Source: Chloroflexota bacterium | GTDB lineage: Bacteria > Chloroflexota > Anaerolineae > Anaerolineales > VGOW01 | Reading direction: 5' to 3' | Length of the DNA stretch: 32,012 nucleotides | NCBI GenBank assembly: GCA_016197225.1 | Contig: JACPWC010000005.1 | Location: 1-32,012 of the forward strand | In this document: positions 215-2,001 of the stretch, in pieces | How positions within the stretch are numbered: the stretch's first letter is position 1 | How the letters are laid out: every line of letters starts with the position of its first letter | The notes under the pieces: model-generated | Told to the model about the DNA's origin: nothing | The model's input: only the letters and a program-made list of their open reading frames with translations | The model's database searches: none | Position numbers and translations under genes: made by a program

Positions 215-244
215 TTGACACTGCTCCCCAACCTGTTGTAACAT
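215..244 (+). promoter_or_regulatory. Putative sigma-70-type promoter for the SAM riboswitch transcript
   Basis: A perfect TTGACA lies at 215-220. The best -10 candidate is TAACAT at 239-244 (18-base spacer, 4 of 6 matches). Transcription would start near 250, about 25 bases before the P1 stem of the riboswitch. The -10 element is weak, so the call rests on the -35 box and the position. Confidence 0.4.
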
Positions 245-273: not shown

Positions 274-448
274 CTCTTATCCAGAGAGGCGGAGGGACCG
301 GCCCTGTGAAGCCTCGGCAACCTAGGGTGGTCGTGTGGTCCTGTAGTCTAGTAGTCGAATAGTCTGACTGCTTGACCACAAGACCAGGTGACTACCAGAC
401 TAAACTAAGGTGCCAATTCCGGCAGATGATGTTTCTGGAAGATGAGAG
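274..448 (+). promoter_or_regulatory. SAM-I (S-box) riboswitch with enlarged P3 arm
   Basis: The conserved SAM-I core is present in order. The P1 5' strand CTCTTATC (274-281) pairs with GATGAGAG (441-448). The AGAGAGGCGGAGGGAC block (about 281-298), the P2 loop around GAAGCCTCGGCAACC (308-322), GGTGCCAATTCCGGCAGAT (409-427) and the P4 side all match the family consensus. SAM-I riboswitches bind S-adenosylmethionine and usually switch off methionine and cysteine genes by terminator formation. A terminator at 470-506 and a Cys/Met PLP enzyme lie directly downstream. The arm between AACC and GGTGCC is unusually long (about 85 bases) because it holds a periodic repeat (328-402). Confidence 0.93.
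328..402 (+). repeat. 8-nt-periodic palindromic repeat array inside riboswitch P3
   Basis: Five units TRGTC begin at 328, 336, 344, 352 and 360, exactly 8 bases apart. Five reverse-complement-type units GAC(C/T)(A/G) begin at 366, 374, 382, 390 and 398, also exactly 8 apart. The two halves fold on each other: 328-340 pairs with 374-386 with one mismatch, and 344-348 pairs with 366-370. The array therefore forms a long hairpin and can slip in 8-base registers. Confidence 0.8.
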
Positions 449-469
449 GGTGACAATTTTGATCTATTG

Positions 470-506
470 CGCCCCCATCTTTTGTAAGAGTAGGGGCGTT
501 TTTGTT
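470..506 (+). terminator. Rho-independent terminator (riboswitch expression platform)
   Basis: CGCCCC (470-475) pairs with GGGGCG (493-498) around a partly paired loop, followed immediately by five T residues (499-503) and TTT at 505-507. It lies 22 bases after the riboswitch P1 stem and before the coding start, which is the expected position for SAM-controlled attenuation. Confidence 0.8.
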
Positions 507-520
507 TACCCCCACCCCGG

Positions 521-567: not shown

Positions 568-2001
568 ATGATGACTACCGAACTCAATCTAAAATCGGCA
601 ATCTCCAACCTAAAATCTCAGCCCGGCCCGTCTACCACCGCCGTGCACGCCGGAACCGAGCGGCCTAACGCCCACCACGCGCTCACGCCGCCGGTGGTGC
701 AAACGGCCACCTACACCTTCGCCGACACCGCCGACCTGTGCGACTTCATGGACGCGCGAATGTGGGGCGCGGCCAAAGGCCGAACCGAGTATGGCCGCTA
801 TGGCAACCCCACTGTGGCCGCCGCCGAGGCCAAGCTGGCCGCGCTGGAGGGCGCGGAAGCGGCAGTGTTGTACTCGTCCGGTATGGCCGCAGTGACTTCG
901 ACTCTGCTCACCCTGTTGCAGTCCGGTTCGCACGTGGTGATCACGGATGACTCGTATCGCCGCACGCGCCAGTTCTGCTTGAACTTCCTCAAGAAGTTTG
1001 GGGTGGATTGCACCGTCGTGGCGATGGGCGACTACGAGGCAATGGAGGCCGCCATTCGCCCGACCACCCGCCTCATCATTTCCGAGTCGCCGACCAACCC
1101 CTATTTGCGGGTGTTGGATTTGGGGCGGGTGGCCGAGATTGCCAAACGGCATAACGTGAAGACGCTGGTGGATGCGACGTTTGCGACGCCGCTCAACTTG
1201 CGACCGCTGGAGTTTGGGATCGATCTGGTTTTGCACTCGGCTACAAAGTATTTAGGCGGGCACAACGATTTGCTGGCCGGGGTGGTGGCCGGGAGCGAGC
1301 AGTTGATCGCCTTGCTTCGCCAGCAGTTGTGGATGTTGGGCGGGGTGCTCGACCCGAACAATGCTTATTTGCTAGTGCGCGGACTCAAGACATTGGCGCT
1401 TCGTGTGGAACGGCAAAACCAAAACGGTCAGCGCCTGGCCGAGTTTCTGGAGAATCACCCGAAGGTCGAACGAGTCTGGTACCCCGGCCTCCCAGGTCAC
1501 CCTGATCATGAGACGGCCAAACGTCAGATGACCGGGTTCGGCGGGGTGATCAGCTTTGAAGTCAGAGGGGGCCTTTCGGCAGGCTCAGGGGAACCTTTAT
1601 CGGCGGCGAGCCGGGTCGTGGATGGAGTCCGAATCCCGATCATCGCGCCGAGTCTGGGCGGAGTCGAGAGTCTGATCGAGCAACCGGCGTTGATGTCGTA
1701 TTATGAGATGTCTACCGAGGAGCGGCTGGAAGTTGGCATCGAACGTGACGCCGCCTCCGGCGATGTTGAAGAAGGCCGACGCCGCCGACGTGCCGGTGGT
1801 GGTTTTGCCGGAAGGCGCGAACCTGCGCGAGGTGCACCGGGCGACGTTGACTCTGATCACCAACCGGCAGGCGCACATTGCCCAGCGCACAACGCAGACT
1901 TACCACTGGCTGGCCCAACTTTCGGCGGAGAGCAAGGGGCTGGAGGCCATTGCCGGCGCGATGGCGGCTCTCACCGGCCACCACGTAGTGGTGCAGGATA
2001 A
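568..2001 (+). CDS. Cys/Met metabolism PLP enzyme (cystathionine gamma-synthase / O-acetylhomoserine sulfhydrylase family), C-terminus replaced after about 1740
   Basis: This is a trans-sulfuration enzyme using pyridoxal phosphate in methionine/cysteine synthesis, which agrees with the SAM riboswitch upstream. Visible motifs include TRTEYGRYGNPT-like sequence near the N-terminus (GRTEYGRYGNPTVAAAE), the YSSGMAA cofactor-binding loop, SESPTNPYLRV, and the PLP lysine in HSATKYLGGH (Lys227 from this start). ATG 568 is chosen because GAGGGGGA lies 7 bases upstream. The first 18 residues appear to be encoded by an AATCTAAAATC-type repeat. Family similarity stops at about residue 391 (…EERLEVGI, base 1740). 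The usual last 25-30 residues, which include the Arg of the (V/L)R-S-x-G-(I/V)-E motif, are missing. The frame then runs about 87 residues out of frame through the downstream regulator gene, so the product is probably inactive if the sequence is correct. Confidence 0.85.
   Translation: MMTTELNLKSAISNLKSQPGPSTTAVHAGTERPNAHHALTPPVVQTATYTFADTADLCDFMDARMWGAAKGRTEYGRYGNPTVAAAEAKLAALEGAEAAVLYSSGMAAVTSTLLTLLQSGSHVVITDDSYRRTRQFCLNFLKKFGVDCTVVAMGDYEAMEAAIRPTTRLIISESPTNPYLRVLDLGRVAEIAKRHNVKTLVDATFATPLNLRPLEFGIDLVLHSATKYLGGHNDLLAGVVAGSEQLIALLRQQLWMLGGVLDPNNAYLLVRGLKTLALRVERQNQNGQRLAEFLENHPKVERVWYPGLPGHPDHETAKRQMTGFGGVISFEVRGGLSAGSGEPLSAASRVVDGVRIPIIAPSLGGVESLIEQPALMSYYEMSTEERLEVGIERDAASGDVEEGRRRRRAGGGFAGRREPARGAPGDVDSDHQPAGAHCPAHNADLPLAGPTFGGEQGAGGHCRRDGGSHRPPRSGAG

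Follow-up and report, generated by a model that had tools for sequence, protein, structure and literature searches.

The closest described systems come from cyanobacteria. STRR heptamers lie within the RNase P RNA gene of heterocyst-forming species (Vioque 1997, as cited as reference 108 in PMC2858038), and in Nostoc the P6b stem of the tRNA-Leu(UAA) group I intron, a self-splicing host, is built of heptanucleotide repeats of Class I (TDNGATT) or Class II (NNTGAGT), for which a one-way switch from Class II to Class I was inferred (PMC4476775). Two other systems share some features. Marine Beggiatoaceae have abundant intergenic TAACTGA repeats with proposed post-transcriptional roles; the paper describes direct repeats and a single indirect one, and does not use the word riboswitch (PMC4679880). 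The REPs tagged with GTAG or CGTC, which are present in Chloroflexi, are dispersed intergenic palindromes transcribable as hairpins (PMC3733652).

The window analysed here, a stretch of 32,012 nucleotides from a Chloroflexota bacterium, carries near its start a SAM-I riboswitch with an oversized P3 arm made of 8-nt units. We conclude that it is probably a SAM-I attenuator whose P3 was filled by a resident short repeat, tolerated as a peripheral helix. More generally, in this bacterium and many of its relatives, self-complementary 7- and 8-nt repeats occupy whichever peripheral arm of RNase P RNA and of the methionine and B12 riboswitches best tolerates them, and the core is apparently left intact. 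As in the STRR and trnL P6b cases, the units pair into a peripheral stem beside a conserved core, a short unit of constant period is repeated outside the RNA, and one unit class replaces another at the same RNA among relatives (metK, metC and cobalamin); as in P6b (PMC4476775), the units pair across the stem, the length changes by units and the replacement is repeated. The present arms switch among short, 7-nt and 8-nt forms with no direction established, in contrast to the one-way switch of Nostoc. From the STRRs, the Chloroflexota case differs in phylum, in unit sequences, in having 8-nt as well as 7-nt units, and in its riboswitch hosts; the dispersal of short tandem repeats over the genome and their presence inside the RNase P RNA gene are common to both. 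The cyanobacterial RNase P RNA and trnL intron repeats are the same kind of phenomenon, and we found no report of short-repeat arrays in riboswitches in the literature searched, outside which most subscription journals fall.

The riboswitch leader and its P3 array

The features of the leader and the gene behind it are as follows.

215-244, forward strand: putative sigma-70-like promoter (TTGACA, 18 nt, TAACAT), 30 nt upstream of the aptamer
274-448, forward strand: SAM-I riboswitch aptamer (cmscan RF00162 and fold), P1 strands 274-281 and 441-448
323-408, forward strand: P3 arm beyond GGCAACC, 86 nt, 8-nt period on both strands of the hairpin
328-364, forward strand: five TRGTC units at 8-nt steps, 5' strand of the P3 arm
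366-402, forward strand: five GAC(C/T)(A/G) (GACYR) units at 8-nt steps, 3' strand of the P3 arm
439-481, forward strand: predicted antiterminator, AAGATG (439-444) pairing with CATCTT (476-481)
470-507, forward strand: predicted terminator, CGCCCC (470-475) and GGGGCG (493-498), then TTTTTGTTT
568-2001, forward strand: gene for a Cys/Met-metabolism PLP enzyme, named metC here, behind the riboswitch

The first-pass annotation placed the array in the P3 arm of an otherwise intact SAM-I core and named a covariance model as the check. Positions 274 to 448 of the window score 82.8 bits with RF00162 (gathering score 44.4), the model is matched completely (1-108), and the extra length is located at the tip of P3, where the window has 79 nt and the model 9, so that the proposal stands. 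The promoter agrees with the consensus at 10 of 12 positions, where shuffled sequences lead one to expect 0.2 such matches, a resemblance to consensus and not proof of function. Downstream, the whole leader (274-510) folds into the aptamer followed by the terminator (-16.3 kcal/mol for 469-500), which a consensus scanner overlooked because its loop exceeds 8 nt. The predicted antiterminator overlaps both the 3' strand of P1 and the terminator and is similar to the latter in strength (-18.0 kcal/mol for 438-482); its role is one that we assume from what is known of S-box leaders. An attenuator, with terminator and antiterminator folds, thus lies between the aptamer and a gene of methionine/SAM metabolism (PF01053), as is expected of a SAM-I leader, and the folded leader, taken with established S-box knowledge, would imply SAM-dependent termination.

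The repeats themselves are exactly phased, as had been claimed for both strands: TRGTC starts at 328, 336, 344, 352 and 360, and GAC(C/T)(A/G) at 366, 374, 382, 390 and 398 (overlapping pattern matches in the sequence). The identity of the arm to itself at lag 8 is 0.64, a value reached by 0 of 500 shuffles, and its folding energy is -38.9 kcal/mol compared to -23.4 +/- 3.6 for shuffles. In the main register the outermost GACTA (398-402) has no partner, in keeping with the earlier observation on the outer units. The same annotation suggested that the arm can re-pair 8 bases away and that such slipping might be used. Direct evaluation of the structures gives -38.9 kcal/mol for the main register, -33.0 for the +8 register and -28.1 for the -8 register, and of the base pairs expected from the ensemble, about 27 belong to the main register and 0.05 to the +8 register. 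Re-registering is therefore possible yet rare at equilibrium, and its use is not borne out, since the alternatives are 6-11 kcal/mol worse and the mispairs bear no sign of selection for pairing.

Arrays in the genome, in other RNAs and across the class

The annotation also suspected a dispersed family, and a search of the 4.8-Mb genome with a three-unit octamer pattern agrees, giving 87 matches at about 30 places compared to 0 for the reversed control pattern (genome-wide array counts here come from pattern searches). Sixteen of the places are palindromic, having at least three units on both strands. The resident repeats comprise the 8-nt TRGTC type and the 7-nt types TTRGARR, CAGTRRT and TGATTNN, which form inverted arrays; TTRGARR has 78 matches in the genome, to be read against 33 for its weaker control. 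Among 101 genomes (this one and its relatives), the octamer pattern is present in 36 and the CAGT-type heptamer in 43, with 730 matches in G021, where the P3 of the metK riboswitch is itself composed of the CAGT-type heptamer. This heptamer reads NYACTGA on the opposite strand and in this, and in its intergenic abundance, resembles the TAACTGA repeat of Beggiatoaceae, which is direct where the arrays here are inverted.

Many octamer arrays sit in, and nearly fill, short gaps between open frames (open frames, not annotated genes). At seven loci of this genome (L084, L087, L088, L092, L098, L100 and L102) the array fills the inter-frame gap almost exactly; at two of them (L084 and L100) a GACCATG unit seems to contain the start codon of the next frame, and at L107 (303-464) a palindromic octamer array stops 8 nt upstream of a tRNA gene (392-464).

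Three other structured RNAs of the genome carry arrays. In the second SAM-I riboswitch (metK, L002), a TTAGAGG heptamer array of the TTRGARR family makes up the P3 arm, the cobalamin riboswitch has a TRGTC octamer array in its variable stem, between AACUGUAA and AGCCAGG, and the RNase P RNA has TGATTNN heptamer units in the stem preceding AGGGUGAAA. We identify this last stem from its position as P12; the STRR repeats of RNase P RNA reportedly concern P12 as well. In G006 the corresponding stem carries a GATGGCA array. TGATTNN resembles the Class I unit of Nostoc, TDNGATT, although units of this length are too short to show descent. The cobalamin aptamer has an optional P8-P10-P11 domain (Barrick and Breaker, PMC2258182), in which we infer that the octamer array lies. 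TPP riboswitches are uniform in length, and those checked contain no 7- or 8-nt array. The riboswitch of the window, put forward as an unusual single case, is thus an instance of something common across the class and extending to other structured RNAs.

A pattern for long P3 arms finds matches in 55 of 400 genomes at the level of the order and in 116 of 396 at that of the class; in each set, a few matches are not riboswitches. Among the fetched arms of the order of at least 40 nt, period 8 is found in 26 and period 7 or 14 in 11, with no other period at p<=0.01. For the rest of the class, 80 arms were chosen by eye from the list so as to avoid near-duplicates; period 7 is seen in 23 and period 8 in 9 (0.8 expected by chance), and no other period is significant among them. 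An assembly artefact is unlikely, as the same kind of arm occurs in genomes of many families. All 12 genomes with clearly periodic arms have dispersed arrays, compared to 26 of the 89 others (Fisher p 2e-6; the test covers octamer and CAGT-heptamer counts in the 101 genomes and ignores relatedness, and the arms contribute a few matches themselves). Some long arms are not periodic (those of family f12, which are GC-rich, and others in G174, G190 and G222), and P3 is therefore permissive in general.

Two further SAM-I loci among the relatives deserve mention. Three such riboswitches stand about 4 kb apart on one contig (G038:C410, 37507-45582), and at G027:C148 (L038) a riboswitch whose arm has an 8-nt period is followed by a longest frame that is membrane-like and is no known methionine gene.

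Turnover of the arms between orthologues

Orthologous metK riboswitches change from one arm form to another (short, 7-nt, 8-nt). Four arm classes, mapped on a tree of 56 MetK proteins, require 19 changes, and the well-supported branches force at least 8 changes for the 8-nt class and at least 4 for the 7-nt class. The sister genomes G084 (8-nt) and G023 (7-nt) have full support on this tree; within the window's own genus, G000 has a 7-nt and G004 an 8-nt arm, their sisterhood being weakly supported. The riboswitch before metC has 8-nt arms in G000 and G004 and a short arm in G003, which is not simply the arm of the window minus its array. Between G000 and G004, the core of the SAM-I riboswitch is identical at 85 of 89 aligned bases, the arm at 59 of 84 with gaps in addition, and units have turned over. 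The cobalamin variable stem behaves likewise in relatives of the same genus, with an 8-nt array in G004 and 7-nt arrays in G002 and G003 (the array in G002 was judged by eye, and the lag test is significant for the rest as well). An arm of unrelated sequence and no 8-base period in related genomes had been named beforehand as evidence against the first-pass proposal, and in part this is what we find: in relatives, the arm of the orthologous riboswitch is either short or a 7-nt array whose sequence is unrelated.

The consequence is that one odd riboswitch becomes a natural experiment across a class. The cost of a long arm should be directly measurable because the same aptamers bear short, 7-nt and 8-nt arms, even in close relatives. 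The distribution suggests that regulatory and catalytic RNAs have their outer parts shaped by the spread of repeats, and as a practical warning, riboswitches with such arms would escape strict length filters.

Proposed origin and tolerance of the arrays

We suggest that resident self-complementary repeats repeatedly colonise permissive peripheral helices. Any pair of strands can form a long hairpin, because the 5' units share one consensus and the 3' units its complement. Copying of one strand into the other by inverted duplication is rejected for the 16 palindromic arrays: neither strand of a hairpin copies the other, and the spacers pair at 0.502 within hairpins and 0.537 between them. As complementarity between spacers is no higher inside one hairpin than across unrelated ones, the pairing derives from the shared unit consensus. 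The repeats would be tolerated because they fold onto themselves, and an insert would survive purifying selection where it extends a peripheral helix at its tip and the core still folds correctly; the surviving sites would be P3 of SAM-I, the variable stem of cobalamin and P12 of RNase P RNA. Each strand would then gain, lose and replace units independently of the other, presumably by slippage, and whole arms would occasionally be swapped for another resident class. SAM, its binding presumably unaffected, would still switch the gene, formation of P1 removing the antiterminator and allowing the terminator to form. The route of entry and the near-neutrality of the arm are what we infer. We think that insertion as a repeat and slippage, the two origins first proposed, both act, since the arm is of the same unit class as the resident repeats of the genome and its units turn over locally. 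We saw neither a clean empty site nor, looking in passing, a target-site duplication.

Of course, the array could be a selected part of the riboswitch, which sets the pace of folding during transcription or tunes switching by moving between registers 8 nt apart. The hairpin is very stable, the +8 register would bring in the outer GACTA units, and long arms recur at the same site. We nevertheless judge this unlikely, since orthologues and paralogues manage with arms of 12-26 nt, sister genomes differ in both the class and the sequence of the arm, the other registers are costly, and the same arrays occur in RNAs that do not switch, such as RNase P RNA. Selection for pairing at the RNA level was also rejected, on a weak test: G-U mispairs are not in excess, A-C mispairs being commoner (109 compared to 64, p 8e-4). 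The A-C excess possibly comes from unit composition, and neutrality predicts more A-C than G-U only if that composition favours A-C.

Equally unlikely, in our estimation, is a process that generates 7- and 8-nt inverted arrays class-wide and delivers them preferentially to hairpin tips, the RNAs being regular targets and not passive survivors. The restriction to periods 7 and 8 is a question that the finding raises, and slippage alone gives no explanation for it.

Purely local growth, with a slippery motif born and expanded within P3 and unrelated to repeats elsewhere, seems to us rather less credible than either. The exact 8-nt phase and degenerate spacers are what slippage followed by mutation would leave, and the unit turnover between G000 and G004 fits as well, but the TRGTC unit is dispersed over the genome and present in two of its riboswitch classes, and periodic arms are confined to genomes rich in dispersed arrays. 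Slightly less credible again is the insertion into P3 of known mobile elements, either REPs moved by RAYT transposases or MITEs. The arrays are indeed dispersed, palindromic and mostly located in gaps between genes, and many units contain GTAG, the tag of REPs reported from Chloroflexi (PMC3733652). A REP, however, is a single short hairpin with a 5-13-bp stem and an unpaired tag (PMC3733652), and of a fixed family sequence, unlike these arrays of 7- and 8-nt units, which vary in length and spacer and have no fixed ends; as for MITE hallmarks, the 16 palindromic arrays include no conserved full-length copies, and their strands are not mutual copies. Least probable is that a DNA- or RNA-binding protein recognises the units, with P3 recruited as another site: the pentamer core is fixed, the spacer is free and many intergenic copies adjoin start codons, but one protein cannot account for the arms because the units differ within a genome (8-nt at metC, 7-nt at metK and RNase P), and strand sequence is not conserved beyond the unit.

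Filling of P3 by a resident repeat, the reading that we prefer, concerns the leader, and some observations were made in and around the gene behind it. A second inverted repeat lies at 521-557 (CCCTCCCCCGTTTGG / CCAAACAGGGGAGGG), between the terminator and metC; CCCTC/GAGGG hairpins like it fill the RNase P stem in G027 and G039. The metC product matches PF01053 (3.4e-122, residues 22-393), and its orthologues in G004 (86%) and G003 (81%) also stand behind SAM-I riboswitches. Homology stops near residue 392-393; at 1690-1760 the frame loses the homologous C-terminus and enters unrelated sequence, while the G004 protein goes on GIKDNLIRLALGIED. A gene for a PucR-type regulator starts directly where the homology is lost, in a different frame. 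Possible causes are a frameshift, a misjoin in the assembly or a deletion that fused the pair of genes. At the other end of the gene, the start of the protein (NLKSAISNLKSQ, window 585-622) is encoded by AATCTAAAATCGGCAATCTCCAACCTAAAATCTCA, which resembles the reverse complement of the TTRGARR family and is perhaps a repeat read as protein; G004 differs exactly in this region.
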